Positions 3,871 through 45,723 of a DNA stretch of 64,000 bases are shown piece by piece. The stretch is taken from the IMG/VR virus record IMGVR_UViG_3300029983_000020, positions 1-64,000 of that record; one strand, written 5' to 3'. The stretch is from a virus. The notes beneath the pieces were generated by a model that was not told the DNA's origin, searched no databases, and was given only the letters and a program-made list of their open reading frames with translations. Each line of letters opens with the position of its first letter. The first letter of the stretch is position 1. The translations under genes were made by a program, and so were the position numbers.

Positions 3871-4997
3871 TATCTTTTTAGTACTGAATCGTATACTTTA
3901 GATAATTTTTCAGCTTGACAACTCCAAGTATGATTGTCACAAATTTTAATACCAGCATCTATATATTTTTGTTTATCTTCTTGTGAAAGATTAATCAATT
4001 TTTGGAAAGCTAATTCAATGCTATTTACTGTAGTTCCACAATTAATTGCATAATCTTCAGTTAAAAAATCTCCCATTCCATTAACAAACGATGACAATAA
4101 AATTGATTTACTAGCCAATGCTTCTAATGCCACAATGCCAAAGGGCTCATGTATTGAAGGAATTATTATAGCATCTGCTGTCATCAACCAGTCAATTTTT
4201 TCCTGACCATATTTAGCACCAACAAAATAAGCATTTTCTGTTTTGTTGCAAAAATCTACCATTGCATCAAATAATTCACTATTTCCCCCGCTTGTAGTTC
4301 CTATGAAAATTAGATCAATTTCATTTGGAATTTTACACTGAATAAGAGTTTGTATGTTTTTCATTTCAGCATATCTTCCTATATATACAAGTTTGATTGG
4401 ATTATCTCCTGGCAACTTAACTTTTGTTTTGCTTACCCATTCATTAGAGTTAATTCCATTATGAATTATAGTAGTTTTTGGTAATAAAATAAATGGAAAT
4501 AATTTTGCGTAACTTTCTGAAACTTGAATTATTGCGTTAGCTTCAATTAACCCGCTAATTTCAATAGCGCATGCCATCTGATATGATAAAACTTGTAAAT
4601 AATGCGGATGTTCTATTTGTTTTTCAATTGATAATTGCATCGTAACTACTAAAGGAATGTTATAGTGTTGAGCGATTATTCTACCAGCCCAAAATGCACT
4701 CCAATCAAACGCATGAACAATATCGGGTTTATCAGATAATGACAATGCTTTTTCAATAAATAATGATTGATTTAAATAAGTTAATGAAAATGGCTCAGGA
4801 TTTCCATCCAAGGTGTTCATTTTCATTACAGGATAATAATGATAATTTCGATTTCTAAATTCTTCTGAATTTGCGGAACCGATTACGTTAAAAACATAAT
4901 TAGGTGGAAAGACGTCAAGCATATTTCTTGCTTGTTCGCCCATTCCACCCATAGGTTTTTTTAACTCATCAGGAATTAAAATTAAAATATTATTCAT
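3870..4997 (-). CDS. GT-B glycosyltransferase, family 4-like
   Basis: The 375-residue protein has the two-domain GT-B layout. The N-terminal donor-side loop reads KPMGGMGEQARNM (14-26), like the GGxG loop of starch/glycogen synthases and GT4 enzymes, and HAFDWSAFWAG follows (95-105). The C-terminal domain begins near IKLVYIGRY (201) and carries HEPFGIVALEA with the conserved E-x7-E pair (Glu284, Glu292) that binds the nucleotide sugar. No signal peptide or membrane span is present, so it acts in the cytoplasm. Its ATG overlaps the stop of the upstream virion-like gene by 8 bp, which implies coupled translation. Possible acceptors are virion proteins, phage DNA bases or a host glycan; the sequence does not decide. 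Confidence 0.85.
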   Translation of the reverse strand: MNNILILIPDELKKPMGGMGEQARNMLDVFPPNYVFNVIGSANSEEFRNRNYHYYPVMKMNTLDGNPEPFSLTYLNQSLFIEKALSLSDKPDIVHAFDWSAFWAGRIIAQHYNIPLVVTMQLSIEKQIEHPHYLQVLSYQMACAIEISGLIEANAIIQVSESYAKLFPFILLPKTTIIHNGINSNEWVSKTKVKLPGDNPIKLVYIGRYAEMKNIQTLIQCKIPNEIDLIFIGTTSGGNSELFDAMVDFCNKTENAYFVGAKYGQEKIDWLMTADAIIIPSIHEPFGIVALEALASKSILLSSFVNGMGDFLTEDYAINCGTTVNSIELAFQKLINLSQEDKQKYIDAGIKICDNHTWSCQAEKLSKVYDSVLKR

Positions 4998-5817
4998 AAA
5001 TAGCTACTTTAAAACCTAACGAAGCATTAGGAGTAGAGTCCACATTTTTAAGCGCTATATTTAGAATAGTAGAACTATCTAGTTGTGTTAACCATGCTGA
5101 TTCACACTGAACCTTTTTATCTAATCCTAAGAATCCTGTATTTAATGCTCCATACCATCCAACCAATACTCCTGCTCCAATATTTTCATATGAAGATATG
5201 CCTCTTACTAAATAAGAATTTGTGTTATATTGCTCAGCATTTCCAGAACTTATCCACCATTCTCTAGCAGTTTTTAAATAATTTGAAGTAACTCTTAACA
5301 TATTTGTTGGCACAACAAATGAATTATTTGGCAATTGAATTAATGTGTTAATACAAAAATTATATTGTCCGGCTATTGTTAAACCATCTTGAAGTGCTGG
5401 CAAATCATTATTTCTTCCAATAAAGATTCTTGATATTAGTGATATGCTTGAATCCATAGCAGTTGAACTAAAAAACCCTATTAAAGCATTTGTTTTATTA
5501 TGCAAAGAACCTAAATCTACAGTTACAAGAGATCTTACACCTGCAGCAATAGATGGGATATTTCCCGAAGCTATTTTAATAGATGGATCTAAAAATACAC
5601 CTCTAATCTGATTAACGGAAGCTGTTTTATTAGTGGATGCTTGTACAATTGCTATACTACAAGTACCATCCAAATATTCAGCTTTTGGAGTTACTGTCGG
5701 ATCAATTGCCGGAAAATAATTTGCCAATTGATTACTTAAATTTAACACTAAATCAGCTACCATTTTTGCTGGGTCTGAATCATTGTAAATTACTGGAGGT
5801 GGAATAAATTGATTCAT
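4990..5817 (-). CDS. Putative virion or tail-fibre accessory protein, 275 aa
   Basis: I do not recognise this family. The protein is Asn/Ser/Ile-rich, lacks cysteine patterns and membrane segments, and appears beta-rich over residues 50-275, like other structural proteins in this block. The first 40 residues are proline-containing and then helical (NQFIPPPVIYNDSDPAKMVADLVL), suggesting an attachment segment followed by a beta-sandwich. It is preceded by a late-type motif and overlaps the glycosyltransferase gene by 8 bp. That pairing raises the possibility that it is the glycosyltransferase acceptor or partner, which is inference only. Confidence 0.6.
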   Translation of the reverse strand: MNQFIPPPVIYNDSDPAKMVADLVLNLSNQLANYFPAIDPTVTPKAEYLDGTCSIAIVQASTNKTASVNQIRGVFLDPSIKIASGNIPSIAAGVRSLVTVDLGSLHNKTNALIGFFSSTAMDSSISLISRIFIGRNNDLPALQDGLTIAGQYNFCINTLIQLPNNSFVVPTNMLRVTSNYLKTAREWWISSGNAEQYNTNSYLVRGISSYENIGAGVLVGWYGALNTGFLGLDKKVQCESAWLTQLDSSTILNIALKNVDSTPNASLGFKVAIYE

Positions 5818-5850
5818 AAATTCAAGTTATTTTAATTCTTAAACATTTTA

Positions 5851-22647: not shown

Positions 22648-23865
22648 ATGAACTTAACACATGCTGAAGAATTCGATTGGAACATGTATGCAGATGGATA
22701 CACGGGTGCAAACCGCTTGCTGCAAAACAAAACAATCAGGACATCCGAAAAGGATAAAGTTTTTTCCAGAGAGCCATATGCTCAAGAATTATTAAACATT
22801 TTTACTGGTCATAAATCTGAAGTAGTAAGAAAAGATTTAACTCAAGGTGATGTTGTAAAAATTGCGGACATTTACAATATTCACGGAAATCTCATCGATA
22901 TTGAATTGGTTGGTGGCCTTACAGTTACTGTCGATTTAGCAAGAGAGAAGAAATTCTTACAAATTTTTGGTTACACATCACCAATAGAATTTATTAACGT
23001 TGTCCGTAATAAAGAAATTTTAAAAGAATTTCTTGGAAAAGGTTTAAATGCCTATATTATAGAAGCGACTCCTTCAGTAAAAATTTCATTATGGCAAGGA
23101 CATCTCAAATCTGTTAGAGATGAATTTATGGAAGAGATTAAAAATCCGTCAAAAGCTTACACTGCTAAAATTGTAGAAGCTAATAAGGGTGGATTCTTCG
23201 TAGAAGTACAAGGAATTGATGCATTTATGCCAGGTTCACTTGCAGCTCCTAATAAAATTATTGATTTCCAATCATATATTGGTAAAGAAATAATTGTTAT
23301 GATTGAAGACTTTTTAAAAGAGATGAATTCGTTTATCGTTTCTCATAAAAAATATCTTACTCATATTCTTCCAAGTAAAATTCAAGAATTGGACTTATCT
23401 ATACAACATGAGGGTATCGTTACTGGTTGTTCTAAATACGGGATATTTATTGAATTTGGAGAAATTTTTACAGCATTATTGCATGTTTCAAAAATGAGTA
23501 CTGAAATTAAAGCTTTATTCAATGAAAGACAAGTTTTAGCTGGAGATAAAATTAAATTTTACATTTCCGAAATTACAAAGGATAATCGTATAATCGCAAC
23601 TACTGAAAGCCCTGAAGAAAAACTTCATAAGATTCAATCATTTATTTTAAATTCAAAGGATGCAATTCTTGAATCTTCAATAGCGGCAATAATGAATTTT
23701 GGAGTAATTGTAAATCTTGGAGAAATAAACGGACTCATACCAATTAGAGAATTTAAAAAGAATAAAATAATGATAAATAATTTCATTATCGGAGAAAAAC
23801 TAAATGTTTTATTTGACGAATTTAAAGATGACCGCATAATTTTTATGCTTCCATCTAAAAAATAA
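22648..23865 (+). CDS. Ribosomal protein S1-like RNA-binding protein
   Basis: The 405-residue protein has several S1 (OB-fold) repeats: one near 65-110, one at about 168-235 (YTAKIVEANKGGFFVEVQGI), one at 250-318 (HEGIVTGCSKYGIFIEFGE, then LLHVSKMS) and one at 330-402 (IAAIMNFGVIVNLGEINGL). The G-(F/I)-F-V/I-x-V/F and final VS-like strands are the standard S1 RNA-binding surface. The first 60 residues are unlike bacterial S1 and may bind the ribosome or another protein. Cellular S1 delivers mRNA to the 30S subunit. In a host with little Shine-Dalgarno use, a phage version could favour phage mRNAs, which is inference. It is transcribed alone, ahead of a strong terminator. Confidence 0.85.
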   Translation: MNLTHAEEFDWNMYADGYTGANRLLQNKTIRTSEKDKVFSREPYAQELLNIFTGHKSEVVRKDLTQGDVVKIADIYNIHGNLIDIELVGGLTVTVDLAREKKFLQIFGYTSPIEFINVVRNKEILKEFLGKGLNAYIIEATPSVKISLWQGHLKSVRDEFMEEIKNPSKAYTAKIVEANKGGFFVEVQGIDAFMPGSLAAPNKIIDFQSYIGKEIIVMIEDFLKEMNSFIVSHKKYLTHILPSKIQELDLSIQHEGIVTGCSKYGIFIEFGEIFTALLHVSKMSTEIKALFNERQVLAGDKIKFYISEITKDNRIIATTESPEEKLHKIQSFILNSKDAILESSIAAIMNFGVIVNLGEINGLIPIREFKKNKIMINNFIIGEKLNVLFDEFKDDRIIFMLPSKK

Positions 23866-35479: not shown

Positions 35480-38400
35480 ATGAATATTCAGAATTGGAAA
35501 TTATTTGACGCAAAAGGCTCAAATATAAATTGGACTCCAAGCCCTATATTACCTCTCGTTATTACTTCTCCTACTGGAAAAGATGCCGCAGGTTATTTAA
35601 TAACAAATTCAAGCACTTTAGTAGAAGGTGTTTGCATAACTAATGGTGGAGTCTTATATGATAATGACGATGTAACTCTTGCATATGATTATGCATATGA
35701 GGGAGTTGTTACGCCTTTTGATGCTTCAATTATCTATAAAGCTATTCCTATTTTTGGCTCGGCATATCCTTTAGTGAATTACGTCGATATTTCTACTAAC
35801 ATGGTTTACACAAACAGTATAAGCGAAATAGTTTTAGATATTTCTTCTTATGTAGAAACTAATAAATACGGAACTTTATATAATTTCTTTGCAGCAACAG
35901 ACCCTAGTTTAATAGCAAATACTGGATGGCAAGTTCCTTTAGAAACAGATGTTCAAACGTTGAGTCTATATTTAGGAGGAGTGTCCACTTCAACAAATTA
36001 CGGAGCAGTTGGTGGTAGATTAAAAGAAACAGGAAATACTTACTGGAATGCTAACATAGGAGCAATAAATGACACTAATTTTTCAATGCGTGGAGGCGGA
36101 ACAAGAAGTCCTCTTGATGGTTCATTTTCCGAAAAAAATATCAATGGTTATTTCTGGACAACTACAATATCATCAAGCACAAATGCATTAGCAGCACACT
36201 GTAGTAATTCAGGAACTACACTTTATAAAGATAATGAATTAAAAACTAGAGCATACTCTATAAAATTACGAAAAACTACTCCAAGTGCTGCAGATTTATT
36301 AAAAGCTGATGGAGAAGAATGTGACCCATATATTGGTAATAATGGCAAGACATACAGGACTGTAAAAATAGGAACACAAGTATGGCTAGCTGATATGCTA
36401 AACGAAACCTTGTTTAGAGATGGCTCACAAATTAAAATAGTCACTGATGCTTCCGAGTGGACTCACATGGGAAATCATGCATATTGCTTTTATGACAATG
36501 ATATTAACAATGCATTTGTAGATGTTTCAATATATAATGATTTTTCAAAAAGCTTTGTTTATCCTTCAGTTACTTTTGCTGCAGCTGTTTTTCTTAAACC
36601 AGTTTCACAGGGGCTTGTTGAAACTGAGCAAATATATATTTTTGAACAAGATCTTGAACAATATATAAGACCTTATGATGTAGATAACAATTTAATTTAT
36701 TTTGAATTTATTGGGGATGATAATGAAATTCAATTCTTTGATGTAGATGAAGATAAAGTAGAAATCACATGGTCAAGTGTTGTAGGATTTGATCTATCAA
36801 CTATAGTATTAGATACTCCTATTCAGCTTAACATTGGATTTAAATCTGATTATGAAGGAGTATTTGAGCGCACCATTAGAGTTTATCACTTAATAGACGG
36901 TGTACTTTATATACTTGGAGAAATCGTTGTTAATGCTGAAGCAATTGGTGAAGATGAACGATTCAGAACTCTTTTAACTAATTTTGGATTACCTGACCCA
37001 AAAGACATGAAAGATGTGTTTAAAGAAACTGACATCAATGAAGATTTGCCAGATTGGGAAATCTTGAATTACAAGTCAAAACAAATGATTCTTGAACATG
37101 ATAAAATCATGCCATTTGTGGGCACATACAAAGGATTAATAAATGCTATTAAATGGTTAGGATATGATGATATTTTTATAAAGGAATGGTTTTTGAATGT
37201 AAAAGATCATACAAAATTAGCAATTTTAGTTTCTTATGATGCAAAAGATAGAACGCAAACAATGCTTCAATTTAATGCAGAACAAAGAAAAACTCTTAAA
37301 AAACTAAATCAGTTATCTCTTCATTATTGTATTACAAGAGAAACCGGAACCATCGATGAATGGGGAACTCCAGAAACAGAAAATTGTTATACATATAATT
37401 TAAAGGAAGTGTTTGTTAAACTCTTAGGGCTTAAAAAATGGCTTGAACTAAATATCATTGGAATCAATTGTCGCATAACTGATTTAACTGGAGAAGGAGT
37501 TTATTTTGAAAGAGTTCAAAATCTTATTTATGAAACTGATAATATTGGGTACAATTATAGTGTAGAACAAACTTTGACACCTTATAGTCCTGATGAAACA
37601 TCAGAATTAATTACGGGAGATGCTAGCATAAGACTAACATTTTTAGAATTATCAAGAACTCGAGTAATGGATTTGCCATATAGGTTTAAAGATATGGCCG
37701 AGTTTGCATGGAATCCTAAAGATCCTTGTGTTAACAAATATTATGAATTAGATTCATCTTCTTATTTAGCAGACCCAAGTAGTTTTTTATTAGTTGGCGC
37801 GACATTCCAATATCCATTTGTAAATATTTCAGATATCGCTTGGAAACTTTCTCTTGAAAATAAAAACGCCGCAGTTGTAGGAAATACATTAGTAACAAAT
37901 CCTTTATTCATTTTAGATAATGATATAAGATTTTATGACATTTTTGATTCATCATCTGTGTTTCATAATTCTTCCACTAATTTAACGGTGATGTTAGAAA
38001 AAGCTTATTTAAGAGACCCTTCTATAGATGAATGGACAAATTCAATTGCTTATTCAATTTATCCAATGACTGATACAAGCTCTGGAAATTATGCATTAGA
38101 ATCTTCCACAGGCGTTATAAATTATTTTGATGATTATGTTACATTTACACCAGATGCTTCTGGAAGACTCCAGTATGCGATAGATTTGAATTATAGGGTA
38201 CCTTTATTAAGCATGAAATATTTCAGCTCAACAACTGTGGATGGCTCTACGTACAATTTTAGTGATAAAGAGTATTATTTAGATATTCTAGATGGAAAAA
38301 TTGCAATGAATGCAAAAAATGTGTTAGGTTCTCAGGATAATACAGTATCTTATATTAATTGGAATTATGACACAAGTTTAATTGAGCAAAAAATAACTTC

Positions 38401-40828
38401 AAATATAATAGTTACATCTCCAAGAATGGAACTTTGGAGAGTTGACCCAAGTATCTATTATTGGGCAGATCCATCAGGATTGACTGGTGGCAATGTAAAT
38501 TCATTGGCAGTTGATAACAGTATTTATATTATGCACGTTAATCATATTGGAGATTATAACGTGGAACTATATGCATGGGATGGATATAACACATTATTTC
38601 ATAATATTGCGAAAGAAACTTACCCAGTATTTATTAAAGCTCCTACTATTTACACTCTCATTGACCAATCTTGTAATACGACATGTGCAAGTACATTTAT
38701 GACTGGCGGTAGGGATTCATTTCCTTCTAAAATTGTTAATTTAGTTGATTATTCTCTTTATTTATCTGATAAATTATTTGCTATCGATACTCCTATTGGC
38801 AGAATTGAAGTAGGTTTTCTATTAGATTCGTTTAGCACAAATTTATCCATATTCAATTCAATAAATCCTTTAGATATAAATCTTAATTATTTCGATATCA
38901 AATATCTGAACGGCTTAATTTATATTGTGATTATAGGCAATGAAGTTACTGTAAGTACAGCAGGGTTTGATTCTACCTCGATAGATATGATTGACGGCAC
39001 ATATTATGCGACTGGATTATATGAAGTTAATACACTTGTTTCACAACATCCTTATCCTATTTATGATAGACCAATACCTTTAGAGGGATTAACATTGAAT
39101 ATTGATAGTGATGGTAATCCTTTTATTAAAGTTCCATCAATTACATATTTTCAAGATGTTCCAAGGCCAAATTCGATTAATAAATTTTATAATTTAACAG
39201 AACGAATCAAAACTATAGGAGCTTCTCAAGTAATCGTAGATTGTGATTATCAATCATTTAATTCAGGGGACACTATTGCTTTAGTATCATTTGATAAAGG
39301 AAAATATTCACTTACTAGTGAAAACATTTATGAGGTTTCTACTGCTACAGGTTCACCTAATGATAGAACTCTTACATTAAGTACTCCTGTTTCTGAAGTT
39401 ATTGATATTTCAACCGATGTATATGCTATAAATCAAACTTTAAGAGGTGTATTTAATTACGGAAATGTAAGTGATAATTTTGTAGCTGATATTTCAGGTT
39501 ACATATTTTCAGTTGGTCAGAATGTAGCAATTATTGTTACTCATACAAATGGATATGATTGGGGCAGTACGTACACGGTCATTGATATTTCAGGAAACAC
39601 CCATACTTTTGATAAATCTTTACCTGATTTTTTCTTAAATCCAACGTATTACACGTTAGAAGCAAAACACGCATTTACAACATATTCTGAAATGCAAATG
39701 ACAACTATTTCAGCTACAGAAGTTGTGAATGAATTTAACATATACATGGGTGATTCTGCATGTCAAGAATACTATCTCGATAATACATTTACGATGGTGA
39801 ACATTTTATTTGATCAAGATATTCCTAATCAACAATGGTATAGCGCTTCAGATAATTTAATACATTCAAATTTTTACTATTACACTGAACCTATTGTGGT
39901 AGACATAAGCACGCTAGTAATTCTTAGAGCAATCTACGACCCGTCAACTTATTTATTAAATCAAAAAAATATATGGGAAGTGATTAATCATGATTCAAGC
40001 ACAATACTTTTTAAAGTATTTAATGAATCTGTTCCTTATATTTTTGATACGCCTGGGATATATGATATTGAATGTATGGCGTATGATAGTTTCGGAAATG
40101 CAATTACTAAAAAATATGAGGGGCTTCTTCAAGTAAATGATGTCGAAACAATTATTATTCCGCCTGTTCCAGTTCCAACTCCTATTAAATATGGAGCTTT
40201 ATATAATTGGTATACAGGAACCGATATTAAAAATATTGCACCTTCTGGATGGAAAGTTCCTTCAAAATCTGATTTAGAAATATTAGTTGCATACTTAGGT
40301 GGGGATACTGTTGCTGGTGGCAAAATAAAAGAAACTGGCACAACTTGGTGGGATGCGCCAAATACTGGAGCAACTAACGAAGCTTTACTTAATGTAAAGG
40401 GTTCTGGCGGTAGGGCAGGATTAACTGGTGGATTTGGAGATGGCGATAGAGAAATGGGAATTTCGTCGGGATTTTGGAGTAGTGACTTATATCCAGGTTA
40501 CGGTGAATTGAACGCTTGGTGCGTAGTTTGTGATGCATATTCTTCTGCACTTACACTTATAGTTAACTCAAAAAGAGATGGAATGCCTATTAGATTAATT
40601 AAAGAATCGACTAGTTTAATTAATGGCCAATCTGGCACAATGGTAAGTAATGATGGAAAAGTTATCAGAACGATATGTATAGGTACACAGGAATACACGG
40701 CGGATAATATTATTGATATTACATTTAAAACTGGAGACCCAGTTAAACTTGTAACGGATAATACTGAATGGAGTAATATGGGAGATCACGCATATTGTTT
40801 CTATGGAAATGACCCTACTAACGGATAA
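35480..40828 (+). CDS. Giant baseplate wedge protein, gp7-position, with two FISUMP domains
   Basis: This 1782-residue protein occupies the gp7 place after gp25 and gp6. A FISUMP domain spans about 130-350 (YGTLYNFF, GWQVPLETD, YWNANIGA, then TYRTVKIGTQVWLADML). Residues about 500-740 look like a wedge core (EDERFRTLLTNFGLPD, PFVGTYKGLINAIKWLGYDD). Beta-sandwich-like stretches follow to 1550. A second FISUMP covers 1570-1782 (YGALYNWY, GWKVPSKSDL, TICIGTQEYTAD). The protein stops at AYCFYGNDPTNG, where a FISUMP repeat would normally run on into another YGALYNWY, so the repeat register is permuted or cut. FISUMP parts probably point outward and touch the host; the core presumably binds the wedge. 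Confidence 0.7.
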   Translation: MNIQNWKLFDAKGSNINWTPSPILPLVITSPTGKDAAGYLITNSSTLVEGVCITNGGVLYDNDDVTLAYDYAYEGVVTPFDASIIYKAIPIFGSAYPLVNYVDISTNMVYTNSISEIVLDISSYVETNKYGTLYNFFAATDPSLIANTGWQVPLETDVQTLSLYLGGVSTSTNYGAVGGRLKETGNTYWNANIGAINDTNFSMRGGGTRSPLDGSFSEKNINGYFWTTTISSSTNALAAHCSNSGTTLYKDNELKTRAYSIKLRKTTPSAADLLKADGEECDPYIGNNGKTYRTVKIGTQVWLADMLNETLFRDGSQIKIVTDASEWTHMGNHAYCFYDNDINNAFVDVSIYNDFSKSFVYPSVTFAAAVFLKPVSQGLVETEQIYIFEQDLEQYIRPYDVDNNLIYFEFIGDDNEIQFFDVDEDKVEITWSSVVGFDLSTIVLDTPIQLNIGFKSDYEGVFERTIRVYHLIDGVLYILGEIVVNAEAIGEDERFRTLLTNFGLPDPKDMKDVFKETDINEDLPDWEILNYKSKQMILEHDKIMPFVGTYKGLINAIKWLGYDDIFIKEWFLNVKDHTKLAILVSYDAKDRTQTMLQFNAEQRKTLKKLNQLSLHYCITRETGTIDEWGTPETENCYTYNLKEVFVKLLGLKKWLELNIIGINCRITDLTGEGVYFERVQNLIYETDNIGYNYSVEQTLTPYSPDETSELITGDASIRLTFLELSRTRVMDLPYRFKDMAEFAWNPKDPCVNKYYELDSSSYLADPSSFLLVGATFQYPFVNISDIAWKLSLENKNAAVVGNTLVTNPLFILDNDIRFYDIFDSSSVFHNSSTNLTVMLEKAYLRDPSIDEWTNSIAYSIYPMTDTSSGNYALESSTGVINYFDDYVTFTPDASGRLQYAIDLNYRVPLLSMKYFSSTTVDGSTYNFSDKEYYLDILDGKIAMNAKNVLGSQDNTVSYINWNYDTSLIEQKITSNIIVTSPRMELWRVDPSIYYWADPSGLTGGNVNSLAVDNSIYIMHVNHIGDYNVELYAWDGYNTLFHNIAKETYPVFIKAPTIYTLIDQSCNTTCASTFMTGGRDSFPSKIVNLVDYSLYLSDKLFAIDTPIGRIEVGFLLDSFSTNLSIFNSINPLDINLNYFDIKYLNGLIYIVIIGNEVTVSTAGFDSTSIDMIDGTYYATGLYEVNTLVSQHPYPIYDRPIPLEGLTLNIDSDGNPFIKVPSITYFQDVPRPNSINKFYNLTERIKTIGASQVIVDCDYQSFNSGDTIALVSFDKGKYSLTSENIYEVSTATGSPNDRTLTLSTPVSEVIDISTDVYAINQTLRGVFNYGNVSDNFVADISGYIFSVGQNVAIIVTHTNGYDWGSTYTVIDISGNTHTFDKSLPDFFLNPTYYTLEAKHAFTTYSEMQMTTISATEVVNEFNIYMGDSACQEYYLDNTFTMVNILFDQDIPNQQWYSASDNLIHSNFYYYTEPIVVDISTLVILRAIYDPSTYLLNQKNIWEVINHDSSTILFKVFNESVPYIFDTPGIYDIECMAYDSFGNAITKKYEGLLQVNDVETIIIPPVPVPTPIKYGALYNWYTGTDIKNIAPSGWKVPSKSDLEILVAYLGGDTVAGGKIKETGTTWWDAPNTGATNEALLNVKGSGGRAGLTGGFGDGDREMGISSGFWSSDLYPGYGELNAWCVVCDAYSSALTLIVNSKRDGMPIRLIKESTSLINGQSGTMVSNDGKVIRTICIGTQEYTADNIIDITFKTGDPVKLVTDNTEWSNMGDHAYCFYGNDPTNG

Positions 40829-40900: not shown

Positions 40901-42052
40901 TTATAAGGCACTGACCTTATAGTTATTAAAAGCTTTCTTTACAGTGTATTCATTTGGATTAGCAATTTTACTTCCATCTGGAAGAAATGCATTATGGAAA
41001 GTAGTAGGATATGTGTAGAAATATGTACCTAAGTTGCTGGTTTTGTCAACAATCTGATTTTGCAATTCAAACTGTGAACCATCATCAAATTTGAAACGTA
41101 TTCTGTTGTAGCCTATAGAACCGCCTTCAACCGATGTAGTAAATTTCTTTCCAAGTTCAGTAATAAATCCACCAAGCTTGTTATACATTTTCATTTGCCA
41201 AGACTTAATAGTTTCTTCGCTTACGCGTTTTGCTCTTATCTTTGCTTTTGTATCATAATCCGGAATAAGTACGTATTTTATTACGTAATTAGTACTCATT
41301 TGTTGTTTAACGAAACCTGATAGTGAAGCAAAGAATTGACGATTTTTTCTTTCAAATTGATCTTTATCATTAGTTCCATCAGGGAAAAGTTCTTTAAATC
41401 TATCACAAAGCCTAATCATCCAGTTATATTCTTTTTCTTCAATAAATTTTCTGAAGTTTTCAGCAATTTCATCAATTGATTTTTTGATTTCTGGATTAAC
41501 AGCTCCTTTAATTTTAAGTAATTCTCTGGCTTGTTTCTGTTCTTTGGTAGGATTTAAAATTTCTTTTATTTCCGCAGTTTTGCATGCCAATTCATACCAA
41601 GTCATTATGTTCGGGTAATATTTGTCAACAAAAGCTTGTTGGAATTTTTTTGGTGAGGATTTCTCAATCTCTTCAACTTTTCTCTTTACTTCATATAAGC
41701 CATATACGTGGAAGAAATGAACTGCTCTTAAGAAGGGGTCTGCATGATTTTTATCAGTAGCTTCGTAAACTGAATCGTAGCCCATTTTCTTGGCTATTTT
41801 TTCAAGATCATTTGAATAATCTCTTTCTACATCTCTGTTTCTGTAATCGTAATATTTCGTTACTGCTCCATCAAGATCATTAATTAACCGGGTGAATTCT
41901 TTACGATCCATATTAGGTTCATCTTCATCAAAACTTTCAATTTTACCAAGATGATCTAAAAGCTTTATTTTGCCGGCTTTCATTTTCGTTGTAGAAGCTA
42001 CCAATTCTTCGATAGTTGGCGTGATTGAATCAGATACAGTTTTTGCGTTCAT
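40901..42052 (-). CDS. Hypothetical protein encoded with the PARP, 383 aa
   Basis: No recognised family. The protein is highly charged and mostly helical through residue 270 (many Lys/Glu, for example VKRKVEEIEKSSPKKFQQ). It then has a small beta domain (GGSIGYNRIRFKFDDGSQFE, TYFYTYPTTFHNAF) and ends FNNYKVSAL. It follows the PARP gene by 62 bp on the same strand and has a weaker promoter box of its own. The composition suggests a soluble cytoplasmic protein. A PARP substrate, regulator or DNA-binding partner is possible from context alone. The gene ends 25 bp before the shared terminator. Confidence 0.65.
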   Translation of the reverse strand: MNAKTVSDSITPTIEELVASTTKMKAGKIKLLDHLGKIESFDEDEPNMDRKEFTRLINDLDGAVTKYYDYRNRDVERDYSNDLEKIAKKMGYDSVYEATDKNHADPFLRAVHFFHVYGLYEVKRKVEEIEKSSPKKFQQAFVDKYYPNIMTWYELACKTAEIKEILNPTKEQKQARELLKIKGAVNPEIKKSIDEIAENFRKFIEEKEYNWMIRLCDRFKELFPDGTNDKDQFERKNRQFFASLSGFVKQQMSTNYVIKYVLIPDYDTKAKIRAKRVSEETIKSWQMKMYNKLGGFITELGKKFTTSVEGGSIGYNRIRFKFDDGSQFELQNQIVDKTSNLGTYFYTYPTTFHNAFLPDGSKIANPNEYTVKKAFNNYKVSAL

Positions 42053-42114: not shown

Positions 42115-43389
42115 TTAAGATATTTCAATTATGTATGCAATTGTGCATTTTTCTGATTTATAAAGTATAAATTCATCGTTTCTTAAATCAAATCCTCCAT
42201 GAGCGTATACTGAATCATAACCATCTTTTTGCACTTTTGTGTGACTCAATGATTTACAATCTGAAGTATGATGATGAATATCTTTTTGTTTTCCGACGTT
42301 ACACTTAAATAAAGCAATGAAACCTGTATCTTGACTTCCACTTGTCCAATAAGCTCCTTTTGTTGACGTATATCCTATTGCTTTTTGCATTTTATTTGCA
42401 AAATATAATCCATCTCCGAACATACTGCCTGTGTGTATTGCTCCTACTGGCCTGATCAATAAACTATTTTGAAGTATATGAAACCAATTCTGATTACGCG
42501 AACCATGAAAAAGCATTTGTTCCTTTGATGATCGAAGTTCTTTGAAGTGATTATCGTATTTATCTGCTGATGCTTTATGGATTACTTTGAAAATATTTTT
42601 TATACGTTTAGCATTTTCTCCAGCTAATGTTTTAACGAACTCAACTTCTTTTCCAGTTATGTGTTCAACAGTGAGACCCATTTGTTCAAGAAGTGATTTT
42701 TGTTCAGTAACAGTAACCATTGACGATTCACTTTGATTTTTTAATTTAACCTGTGAAGCCATTACGTCTAAAGTTGATTGTTCATTTCTGATCATCTTTT
42801 GAACGTATTCAATATTTTCTGTTGTAGATAACGAATCAACTAAATGATAAGATACCTTTTTCATTTTTCGTGGAATGATACGATAAAGTTCTAAAAGATC
42901 ATTATTAACGTCTTTAACGTTTCCATCTTTGACAATTTTTAATGATACTCTTCCTAAAATTAATTGAGCTTCATCTACCATTCGTTGAGTTACATTCTCA
43001 ACCGATACTGAGTAATTTTCTTTTACTGAAATACTTGCGAATCTTTGTAAGTCGATCATTAACTTACGAACCGCAGCGTTCAATATCATTGCTGTAGGGT
43101 CTTCACCTTTATTCCCGGCTGAAGGGTCTTTTAAAATTTCTTCATATAAATGAGTAACGTCCTTGTAACCTTTTTTATCACCCGTCTTATGCTCATAGAA
43201 TTTTTCCCAATCTTTCATCGGGTAAATCTTTTTTTGCCCAGCAGAAACATCAATTGCAAGTTCTCCTTTTATCCTACCCCATTGAGCTTCCCATTCTGTT
43301 GAATTAAGTTTAGTCATGATGTAGAATTTGTTGTTGTTACCATCACTTGAAATACATACTAATTTTATAATATTTCTATTGTTGTTCAT
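42115..43389 (-). CDS. WGR-domain poly(ADP-ribose) polymerase (PARP)
   Basis: Three PARP regions occur in order (numbering from the chosen start, 424 aa). A WGR domain near 5-85 carries EAQWGRIKG, W37-G38-R39. A helical regulatory domain covers about 100-235 and includes LLELYRIIPRKM. A catalytic domain runs from about 260 to the end. The H-Y-E triad is intact: His295 in MLFHGSR, Tyr329 in GDGLYFAN and Glu406 in NDEFILY. A catalytic Glu is the hallmark of enzymes that build ADP-ribose chains from NAD. Known WGR PARPs are activated by DNA breaks. T4 ADP-ribosyltransferases Alt and ModA/B belong to the different R-S-E group. I chose the ATG at 43389 because a TTG seven codons upstream overlaps the TATATTTG box. 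Confidence 0.92.
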   Translation of the reverse strand: MNNNRNIIKLVCISSDGNNNKFYIMTKLNSTEWEAQWGRIKGELAIDVSAGQKKIYPMKDWEKFYEHKTGDKKGYKDVTHLYEEILKDPSAGNKGEDPTAMILNAAVRKLMIDLQRFASISVKENYSVSVENVTQRMVDEAQLILGRVSLKIVKDGNVKDVNNDLLELYRIIPRKMKKVSYHLVDSLSTTENIEYVQKMIRNEQSTLDVMASQVKLKNQSESSMVTVTEQKSLLEQMGLTVEHITGKEVEFVKTLAGENAKRIKNIFKVIHKASADKYDNHFKELRSSKEQMLFHGSRNQNWFHILQNSLLIRPVGAIHTGSMFGDGLYFANKMQKAIGYTSTKGAYWTSGSQDTGFIALFKCNVGKQKDIHHHTSDCKSLSHTKVQKDGYDSVYAHGGFDLRNDEFILYKSEKCTIAYIIEIS

Positions 43390-43407: not shown

Positions 43408-43415
43408 CAAATATA
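43408..43415 (-). promoter_or_regulatory. Host-type promoter -7 box (TATATTTG) of the PARP operon
   Basis: On the minus strand a perfect TAnnTTTG box ends 18 bp before the PARP ATG, giving a leader of about 10-15 bases. It suggests transcription by unmodified host RNA polymerase and hence early expression. Confidence 0.55.
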
Positions 43416-43492: not shown

Positions 43493-43573
43493 ATGAAACA
43501 ATTTTATACTTATGAACTAATTAATTCTATAACAAATGAGGTTATTTATGTAGGTAAATATCGTTCTCTGTGA
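43493..43573 (+). pseudogene. Truncated GIY-YIG endonuclease remnant, 26 codons
   Basis: The frame encodes MKQFYTYELINSITNEVIYV followed by GKYRSL and a stop. Y-x-Y-E-L followed by V-I-Y-V-G-K is the start of a GIY-YIG nuclease (YTYELINS...YVGKG form), but the catalytic Arg and Glu regions are missing. With a late-type motif directly ahead and no continuation in any plus frame, it looks like the scar of a lost homing endonuclease. It overlaps the end of a small minus-strand frame by 28 bp. Confidence 0.55.
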
Positions 43574-43695: not shown

Positions 43696-44307
43696 TTATG
43701 ATGATGAGTATTCCCAATTTCCGCATTTGAGGCATGTGTATGTAACTCCTCTTTCAACCATTCTTTTTCCACAACAGTAACTTCCTGAACCTTCATCTTC
43801 ATCAAGCTCATCGAACTCAATTGTATCGGGTTCGTAATCGCCGGGAAGTGAAGGCATCCATTCGGAATCATTGATGAATTCAGAAGGTGGGGGTAACTCA
43901 TCTTCAAGTTTCAGTCCAGCTTGAAATTTTATATTGATGGTTTCTTGTTTGTCGAGGAACTTTTGGAGTTCATCTTTGTTGACAGTTGAAGGTTTGTTTG
44001 AACGAGGGTTCTCAACGAGTTTGAACCACTCACTGTGTCCGACATTGTACCCCATTTTCAAACACAAAGGATAACTTCGGCCCGTGAGCTCGATAGGAAT
44101 GTGAATCTCAGCGCCACTCATTCTGGCGTCAGGATCACCGGGGCGTCCGATGAGGTAAGGGTCTCTAACGACTTCATACACTCCGTTGTAAGCGAAGTAG
44201 CTTGAACCTCGTTTACAAATGAGTTGAATAATGTCACCCTTCTTTACGTCGGTCTTGTTCTTTGCTCGTTTGTAGAGCTTTCCGTTGTACTTTATGATTC
44301 CTTTCAT
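43696..44307 (-). CDS. Zinc-ribbon protein with basic SH3-like N-terminus, 203 aa
   Basis: The N-terminal 80 residues form a small beta barrel-like region rich in Lys (YNGKLYKRAKNKTDVKKGD). A linker and an acidic stretch (DTIEFDELDEDEG) lead to a C-terminal zinc ribbon (YCCGKRMVERGVTYTCLKCG: CCGK...CLKCG). The gene is visibly richer in G and C than the virion genes. I chose the ATG at 44307: ten codons earlier lies only a TTG inside a promoter-like box. TATATTTA ends 4 bp before this ATG, so the mRNA may be leaderless. The role is unknown; zinc ribbons of this kind often bind nucleic acid. Confidence 0.65.
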   Translation of the reverse strand: MKGIIKYNGKLYKRAKNKTDVKKGDIIQLICKRGSSYFAYNGVYEVVRDPYLIGRPGDPDARMSGAEIHIPIELTGRSYPLCLKMGYNVGHSEWFKLVENPRSNKPSTVNKDELQKFLDKQETINIKFQAGLKLEDELPPPSEFINDSEWMPSLPGDYEPDTIEFDELDEDEGSGSYCCGKRMVERGVTYTCLKCGNWEYSSS

Positions 44308-44886: not shown

Positions 44887-45723
44887 TTATATTGGAATTG
44901 GAGGCTGTAACGGAAATCCAAATGTTTTTGCTCCCGTAGGGACAAAATCTTTATATAAAAATAATAGCCACTGAACATTTGTAGGTTTAAGCATCTCATA
45001 TTTGGGAAATGTATCTTTAGTAACCGTGAATAAACTTGATGCAGATAACACTTTTTTAAGAGATGAGTAATTAACTGTGGAAGTTTTGATACGTAAATCA
45101 TGTGCAGACTTAGGAAGCATCATATCTTCACTTGTTAATGACGCTTTATCAATTAAATTATCAATTACTGCTGGGTTAACATTGTCTTCTAAGTTATCAG
45201 CAATTTTTATAATTGGCTTAGGATTTTTTGCAGTTATTCCAAAATTTGCAGTATAAGGTTTAATAGATATGGGTAATGTTAAAATAATTTTATCTAAATC
45301 ATCTATCATTTCATTGATGGTAGCTATTTTTTTATCTATAAGTTTTTCTTCTAGATAAATTGATTCTAATCCAGATATTCCAGATACAGATTTATCCCCT
45401 CTTTCTACACTTCTAAGAGCTTGATATTTTTTAGTAAGAGCCCATATATCCAGTTTTGTAGTTAAAAGATTTTTTTCCTCAGTTACAATTGGAGAAATGA
45501 TAGGAGTTGTGGCAACTTGTGAAGTTAATGGCTTTATAATTAAAGGATTAAGTTCAATCTTTTTTTCGGTGGGAATATTATTAAGATACTCCCATACTAT
45601 TGTTACGCCAGGAATTGGTATGAAAGGAAGCACATCATATGTGTATATTCCCACATCTTCCCAATTCATATCAAGGTCTTCCCAGTTGATATTGATTTCG
45701 TCCCAATTATATTTAAAGCTCAT
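44887..45723 (-). CDS. Hypothetical, possibly virion-associated protein, 278 aa
   Basis: Unknown family. It opens with an unusual acidic, Trp-rich repeat (NWDEININWEDLDMNWEDVG), then a hydrophobic proline-containing stretch (LPFIPIPGVTIVWEYL). A mainly helical body follows, and it ends in a proline-rich tail (FGFPLQPPIPI). There is no signal peptide. It is divergent from the 299-aa repeat gene, sharing a 55-bp AT-rich gap with TATATATAA sequence in both directions. Its orientation groups it with the accessory island, but its Asn/Ile-rich AT composition is like that of the virion genes. Confidence 0.55.
   Translation of the reverse strand: MSFKYNWDEININWEDLDMNWEDVGIYTYDVLPFIPIPGVTIVWEYLNNIPTEKKIELNPLIIKPLTSQVATTPIISPIVTEEKNLLTTKLDIWALTKKYQALRSVERGDKSVSGISGLESIYLEEKLIDKKIATINEMIDDLDKIILTLPISIKPYTANFGITAKNPKPIIKIADNLEDNVNPAVIDNLIDKASLTSEDMMLPKSAHDLRIKTSTVNYSSLKKVLSASSLFTVTKDTFPKYEMLKPTNVQWLLFLYKDFVPTGAKTFGFPLQPPIPI

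Follow-up and report, generated by a model that had tools for sequence, protein, structure and literature searches.

The PARP gene and its residues

The window analysed here is a stretch of 64,000 nucleotides from a viral fragment of 66,208 bases. At 42115-43389, on the minus strand, it encodes a protein of 424 amino acids with the WGR-helical-catalytic build of a PARP, a call made from the reading frame, Pfam, PHROG, a family profile and a structural model. In the window's list of open reading frames, the gene starts with the ATG at 43389, stops at 42115-42117 and has an intact frame; from the frequency of stop triplets alone, the chance of an open stretch of 424 codons is about 6e-14 per place. 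Three domains follow one another on the minus strand, with approximate boundaries. The WGR domain (about residues 1-97, including N20, W37, G38, R39 and K68; 43099-43389) was placed by profile and model, the helical or regulatory domain (about residues 98-236; 42682-43098) by the helices of the model and by alignment to PARP1-3, and the catalytic ADP-ribosyltransferase (ART) domain (about residues 237-424; 42118-42681) by PF00644.

PF00644 (PARP) covers residues 253-423 (E 9e-23) and is the sole Pfam match over the cut-off; the Pfam WGR model, run on the window sequence alone, stays below it (E 0.12), and NCBIfam gives no match. The phage family PHROG 23333, labelled polymerase, matches residues 10-423 (E 5.8e-41). 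A profile made from the window PARP and 42 relatives reaches further. Among its 43 members Pfam finds WGR in 11 and PARP_reg in four (E up to 0.01 for both). Compared with PARP1 chains (PARP2 chains were compared too), the profile matches with E 1.7e-30 over positions 14-380, from the WGR on; the last stretch, where the catalytic Glu is aligned, is by itself not significant. The structure predicted from the same 43-row alignment (pLDDT 85.4, pTM 0.81) has as its best structural matches PARP1 on a DNA double-strand break. Residues 1-424 of the model align to PARP1 548-1006 (Z 26.3, 3.8 Å, 365 residues), and from residue ~100 it aligns to the catalytic fragments of PARP1-3 with Z of about 24-25. 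Since the profile match, the model and the end-to-end alignment with PARP1 concur, the predicted WGR-helical-ART build is well supported. The arrangement of DNA-break-activated PARPs, which an earlier note had read from the letters of the sequence, is thus upheld. Four traits that mark DNA-dependent (PARP1/2/3-like) PARPs, namely the ART, an H-Y-E triad, the WGR and the helical domain, are present.

By alignment, the triad consists of His295 (codon 42505-42507), Tyr329 (42403-42405) and Glu406 (42172-42174), all read from the minus strand, and the residue numbers given earlier are correct. The 87 phage sequences, the window's included, reduce to 70 distinct ones, and the triad is complete in 69 of these, again including the window; the remaining one ends at a contig edge. 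(This count omits L057, which has a broken frame, and L001, L002 and L013, which carry the window's own protein.) Among bacterial sequences the triad is complete in 78 of 79. The exception, L164 (HYL), matches residues 10-352 only, so its last triad residue is not reliably aligned. The window protein is thus of the H-Y-E and not of the R-S-E type to which T4 Alt and Mod belong. An H-Y-E triad does not prove polymerisation: the triads of PARP3 and PARP4 are also H-Y-E, and PARP4 counts here as a mono-ADP-ribosylating enzyme on the basis of the names of PDB entries. In passages of a published account, chain making is credited to PARP1, PARP2 and the tankyrases only, and PARP3 adds single ADP-ribose units (PMC8385414).

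In the WGR domain, N20, K21, G38, R39 and K68 show no variation across the 70 phage sequences. The position of W37 is a Tyr in 58 of the 70, and YGR replaces WGR in 70 of the 79 bacterial sequences. We take three further positions in the window protein to be the equivalents of PARP1 Gly863, Lys903 and Tyr907, and all three residues are kept. The position that we presume to be that of PARP1 Ser904, in the nicotinamide pocket, is a Ser in 63 of the 70 phage and in all 79 bacterial sequences. In the window protein it is Ala337 (codon 42379-42381, minus strand, by alignment), so that the Ser expected of a strict PARP is replaced; Ala is found in seven of the 70 phage sequences (the window and six others) and in none of the 79 bacterial ones. 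The NAD-binding residues near GSMFGDGLYF, on which the earlier reading depended, have accordingly fared unevenly: the stretch itself is kept, but this nearby pocket residue is unlike that of most relatives. Ala337 may weaken NAD+ binding, and catalytic activity, judged from the sequence, is likely but not certain. The Tyr of the bacterial YGR is in line with print, where Tyr is given as the commonest residue at the WGR Trp position of bacterial PARPs, in the passages available (PMC5966428).

Relatives, promoter and genomic setting

Homologues in other phages, for which the earlier note had called, are numerous. A tblastn search through 50,697 phage records gave 15 with a match to the window PARP, LR756500 at 40% identity and the others at 24-30%. 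In IMG/VR, 230 of 273 pattern-matched stretches encode a PARP relative, and the best 80 of these 230 were retained. Bacterial genomes scanned with the window protein alone yielded no PARP; scanned with the 43-row alignment, they yielded 79 PARP loci, mostly in Cytophagales and Saprospiraceae, then in Clostridia. (In 18 of the bacterial loci, L121:6202 among them, a gene of 340 amino acids lies near the PARP; by eye, we take it to be WYL-regulator-like.)

A quick tree of 127 rows, made without bootstrap, holds 54 of the 70 phage sequences (90% clusters) and 73 of the 79 bacterial ones, six short, odd or broken bacterial rows being omitted. It places the window PARP (P0001) in a group of 40 phage rows with no bacterial row (SH-aLRT 80), within which it belongs to no strongly supported smaller group. 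A few phage rows are interspersed with bacterial ones, and another six, from named phages, stand apart on long branches. A recent pick-up from a host was considered and rejected on the strength of this phage-only group and of the GC content of the gene (31.9% vs. 31.5% for the window).

The gene is phage-borne, as had been claimed, since virion-like genes lie on the same fragment: three of the nine window proteins scanned in PHROGs carry virion labels (baseplate wedge, head closure and small terminase). The baseplate gene matches 56 IMG/VR loci, two of them identical and 54 at 61-77% identity. Because these relatives sit on contigs of up to 405 kb, the window very probably comes from a large phage. 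Elsewhere in the window (22648-23862) a protein of 405 amino acids has three S1 RNA-binding stretches. Adjoining the PARP cassette is a tail-region protein of 1782 amino acids (35480-40828) that holds three Fib_succ_major stretches. The Fib_succ_major domain is associated with Bacteroidota. The host probably belongs to the Bacteroidota, and the grounds for this are two, the Fib_succ_major stretches and the type of promoter.

That promoter is represented in the window by TATATTTG, a match to the Bacteroidota -7 box, at 43408-43415 on the minus strand, 18 nt before the PARP ATG. There is no TTTG at the -33 place. The consensus is given as TTTG/TANNTTTG, with the -33 part weak in Flavobacterium, in the excerpts seen of PMC6847099. 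In the window as a whole, TTTG-N17-23-TANNTTTG occurs seven times against 5.9 expected, and a -7 box lies within 70 nt upstream of four of 40 genes, with four also in the reversed control and 1.3 in shuffles. The window scan alone is therefore not informative, and the family-wide test is the one that counts. This test took IMG/VR loci only, 44 of 46 representatives (two start too near a contig end), and used the first ATG of each open reading frame as the start. Of the 44 PARPs, 23 have the TANNTTTG box 10-30 nt ahead of their start, compared with a mean of 0.86 and a largest value of 4 in the shuffled control, and TTTG stands 18-20 nt further up in 15 of these 23. Before other genes of the same loci the box is found in 85 of 969 cases, which gives the PARP an odds ratio of 11. 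The host-type promoter proposed earlier thus holds for its -7 box, which recurs in the relatives, but not for the -33 element. From promoter type only, we infer early expression of the PARP.

The PARP has the appearance of an accessory gene in a variable site, because none of 24 backbone relatives was found to have one and the site differs in each of three relatives compared. The 24, out of 54, are mostly fragments, only five exceeding 100 kb, and were searched with a query that does match in the window record. In these three long relatives, what separates the tail gene from the homologue of the window gene at 44887-45723 is different each time: one gene of 101 amino acids in the first, other genes over ~7 kb in the second and over ~2.7 kb in the third. 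That window gene (278 amino acids) resembles in its C-terminal part a piece of a protein of ~1150 amino acids, at the matching place in three relatives. Given the phage-only tree group and a GC content close to the window's, the PARP gene looks old in phages, yet new to the window's backbone, though this is not firm. Against LR756500 (41 kb), only the PARP among 40 window open reading frames matched better than E 0.04.

Two unassigned genes of the minus strand flank the PARP in the list of open reading frames. One (40901-42052, 383 amino acids) lies 62 nt downstream and is possibly co-transcribed with it; it has no match in Pfam (E≤0.05), PHROG (E≤0.01) or PADLOC, and a single-protein scan of IMG/VR matched only the near-identical virus. 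The other (43696-44307, 203 amino acids) lies upstream in the same cassette and has no Pfam match. On the plus strand, comparison of contigs revealed at 43493-43573 the remnant start of an open reading frame, with ~22 codons shared with one in the near-identical contig L001. There, ~1.8 kb extra beside the PARP (about 4006-5833) holds the complete frame of 286 codons, presumably, from its motif, a GIY-YIG homing endonuclease.

Neighbouring ligases and a candidate winged-helix partner

The window's 66-kb fragment holds no ligase, RNA ligase, macrodomain or partner gene that we could find, and the neighbourhood argument therefore rests on relatives, whose identity is 36-44% in most cases. Around the PARPs of 53 clustered phage loci, with clusters identified by scanning one representative each, an ATP-dependent DNA ligase turns up most often (27 loci). 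Next are two families to which no clear role can be given (24 and 23 loci), then an RNA ligase (22), a family of 67 amino acids (19), a T4 RnlA-like ligase (15) and, further down the ranking, an RlaP-type nucleotidyltransferase (10). Beside these, a gene of 186 amino acids lies near the PARPs of 14 loci (L037:13909-14466 and 13 others), and its scanned member matches ~50 residues of T4 Gp23, the major capsid protein.

As large phages often carry ligases anyway, distance was measured rather than mere presence. The DNA ligase scan covered 45 of the 80 IMG/VR contigs and seven of the 15 matching phage records; the scans for RNA ligase, reductase and macrodomain covered 29 of 30 IMG/VR contigs that reach 80 kb and the same seven phage records, L084, whose scores equal those of L083, being omitted. 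Counts are of matches over the curated cut-off (one match below it, in G017, was kept, on a contig shorter than 80 kb). Contigs of 80 kb or more number 36. DNA ligase (PF01068) is present in 24 of them, and in 16 of these 24 its distance from the PARP is no more than 10 kb, where uniform placement would give 3.3; all 16 are on the PARP strand. It is absent over the cut-off from the other 12 contigs, and in eight of the 24 it lies more than 10 kb away. RNA ligase (PF09414) is likewise present in 24 of the 36, with 13 within 10 kb (3.4 expected). Of the two controls on the same contigs, ribonucleotide reductase (PF02867) lies within 10 kb in none of 21 cases (2.0 expected) and the macrodomain in two of 15 (1.7 expected). 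The idea of a linked writer-eraser pair of PARP and macrodomain was dropped for this reason, macrodomains being present in 15 of the 36 contigs and seldom close.

These figures need some discounting. The contigs are related by descent, and in some the PARP is the same (identical or near-identical pairs such as L017/L018, L046/L047, L072/L073 and L078/L079 were kept), so the counts are not independent; shared descent inflates them, and uniform placement is a crude null. A ligase within 10 kb nonetheless occurs in separate branches of the tree, namely the main group of 24 rows, L089 with L071, L044, L091, L082 and L085, although L071, L091, L082 and L085 are on contigs below 80 kb, where closeness means less. 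The distance is also short in phi4:1 (0.9 kb) and LR756511 (0.7 kb), on separate branches again. The reductase control is not clean either, since the anaerobic ribonucleotide reductase falls outside PF02867. A gene annotated as this enzyme lies ~1 kb after the PARP in three Klebsiella phages, 05F01, KP13-16 and FBKp34 (L006, L010 and L012), in which no DNA ligase was found nearby. A reductase match in the L021 record (G007:C1:114536-117580) spans 3 kb with many internal stops, as if split by an intron or insertion.

A second neighbour emerges from bacteria. One protein family is encoded within 4 kb of the PARP, on the same strand, in 40 of the 79 bacterial loci, and in 37 of these 40 it lies within 160 nt after the PARP. 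A first profile of this partner (A3) was built largely from phage genes near PARPs, which made the search with it partly circular. A profile of 17 bacterial partners only (A5) finds the partner once each in 14 of 53 PARP-bearing viral records, the window record not among them, and A3 finds the same 14 at the same places. The viral partner lies within 10 kb of the PARP in 12 of the 14 (2.4 expected), all on the PARP strand. In phi4:1, the partner gp030, whose family is PHROG 33401, comes directly after the PARP gp031, and the ligase gp029 adjoins them; other examples are at L093:9331-9621, L099:3526-4470, L004:9115-9576 and L091:11250-12065. Co-occurrence was followed in 291 genomes of one bacterial order, part of the scan scoring up to 19 candidates per genome. 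The PARP is over the cut-off in 32 genomes and the partner in 38; 29 have both, at most 1 kb apart in 21, while three have the PARP alone and nine the partner alone.

The first 75 residues of the partner are predicted to form a winged helix (best Z 9.8, a level common for such folds), a part for which no Pfam or NCBIfam family comes over the cut-off in the proteins scanned. The long form that was tested has in addition a WGR domain over the cut-off (Pfam E 1e-6), and residues 81-149 of its model align to 2ra8 (Z 11.4, 1.6 Å).

Possible functions and known systems

We infer a role at DNA ends in infection from the neighbouring ligases, the partner with its predicted winged helix and WGR, and the host promoter. 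The reading we favour, one that we would accept and doubt in about equal measure, is that the window PARP is a DNA-end-activated ADP-ribosyltransferase of the PARP2/PARP3 type, which protects or marks breaks in phage DNA. As follows from known PARPs, the WGR would bind 5'-phosphorylated DNA at a nick or break, which would open the helical domain, let NAD+ in and turn on the ART. ADP-ribose would be put on the enzyme itself, on proteins at the DNA end or on the end itself. To judge from the relatives, the phage would express the PARP from a host-type promoter, hence probably early, and breaks in phage DNA would be shielded or marked against host nucleases and then handed to ligation. The window's phage would profit from it only against certain hosts or defences, and not in core replication, as befits an accessory gene at a variable spot. 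There is a biochemical precedent in passages of the literature: PARP1-3 modify phosphorylated DNA ends in vitro, which protects them from phosphatase, and in-vitro assays suggest that PARP3-modified ends are possibly ligase substrates (PMC8385414).

The main rival reading is modification of host proteins. As T4 does with Alt and Mod, the phage would take over its host by ADP-ribosylating RNA polymerase, translation or repair factors, though through another catalytic family, and DNA binding would determine the place or time of action. Besides the T4 precedent, the promoter box suggests early expression, and an action of phage PARPs like that of other phage ARTs has been proposed (PMC7824862, in part of its text). 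The invariance of N20, G38, R39 and K68 in all 70 phage sequences is not obviously needed for modifying proteins alone, however, and the recurrent neighbours of known family, one representative scanned per cluster, are ligases and RNA-repair-type proteins. We hold host take-over to be rather unlikely on balance.

Less likely still, and improbable in our view, is a part in counter-defence or superinfection exclusion, where DNA breakage would lead to use of NAD+, or to ADP-ribose signals, against competing phages or a host NAD+ defence. PARPs do consume NAD+, the gene is accessory and at a variable spot, and phage genes of NAD+ and ADP-ribose metabolism are widely linked with conflict in the passages seen of PMC9503650; but macrodomains are unlinked to the PARP, and PADLOC (E≤0.01) has no match for two partner proteins, two window neighbours or the PARP, whose membership in a defence system was set aside on that result. 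That the gene is a weakened copy kept as a DNA-end binder, with activity lowered by Ala337 and useful work done by the WGR, is very improbable: the rarity of the Ala in phages and its lack in the bacterial sequences would suit it, but the frame is intact, the triad and the Gly863, Lys903 and Tyr907 equivalents are kept, and six other phage PARPs carry the same Ala.

A wider version of the DNA-end reading, tentative and in our judgement doubtful, would make the WGR-PARP and a winged-helix partner that reads or steers it a two-part system of DNA-end ADP-ribosylation, common to phages and Bacteroidota. In large phages the PARP would have become linked with DNA and RNA ligases of the phage and with a host promoter, so that breaks made by defences would be capped, shielded from nucleases and sealed. 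If true, no earlier phage repair system would be known to work by ADP-ribosylation, and prokaryotic PARPs would have their first known partner.

A WGR PARP is not new for phages, whereas the earlier note had presented it as a different mode of modification there. Perina 2014 placed PARPs in Aeromonas phage Aeh1 and Cellulophaga phi4:1 (PMC4245714), the XacN1 enzyme appears in Iyer 2021, with the suggestion that polymers are transferred (PMC7824862), Iyer 2022 ranks the PARP family (PARTs) with the most frequent ARTs of viruses (PMC9503650), and a 2023 review lists the Aeh1 and insect-virus proteins as putative functional PARPs (PMC10789625), all in the passages available; GenBank annotations, too, had it already. 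Passages of the phage PARP papers make no mention of a ligase setting or partner gene, and a search of the open literature, with most subscription papers outside it, found no functional assay of any phage PARP. What is new here is the set of IMG/VR relatives, the ligase setting, the promoter box and the partner gene, the phage PARP itself being known; the setting, promoter and partner are the parts worth following. The gene settings turn a vague idea of phage ADP-ribosylation into a testable one, that of a PARP working with phage ligases against host nucleases, and they supply a candidate co-factor for bacterial PARPs.

Among known systems, T4 Alt, ModA and ModB are phage ADP-ribosyltransferases that use NAD+, as is proposed for the window PARP, but they are of the R-S-E family; they are set apart by description, from the literature. 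They are not known to have a WGR or helical domain. AcrIF11, likened to the window PARP by description only, is a phage-borne ADP-ribosyltransferase whose counter-defence role is CRISPR-specific (PMC12421852). Bacterial PARPs of Bacteroidota and Clostridia, for two of which published studies exist (C. difficile CD160 and Herpetosiphon, as far as the passages go), share the build and the H-Y-E triad, and differ from the window record by the partner near about half of them. Closer in kind are the PARPs of phi4:1 (gp031), XacN1 (BBA65562.1), Klebsiella FBKp34 and Stenotrophomonas RAS14, which align over their full length with the same architecture and triad (the GenBank record of FBKp34 names all three domains), although they are only 24-30% identical and belong to other phage groups with other gene settings. 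The nearest record in the phage collection is the uncultured phage LR756500. Human PARP1, PARP2 and PARP3 (clade 1) differ in having zinc fingers, BRCT or a long N-terminal tail, in an identity of ~20% and in the Ser at position 904, but they share with the window PARP the succession of WGR, helical domain and H-Y-E ART.
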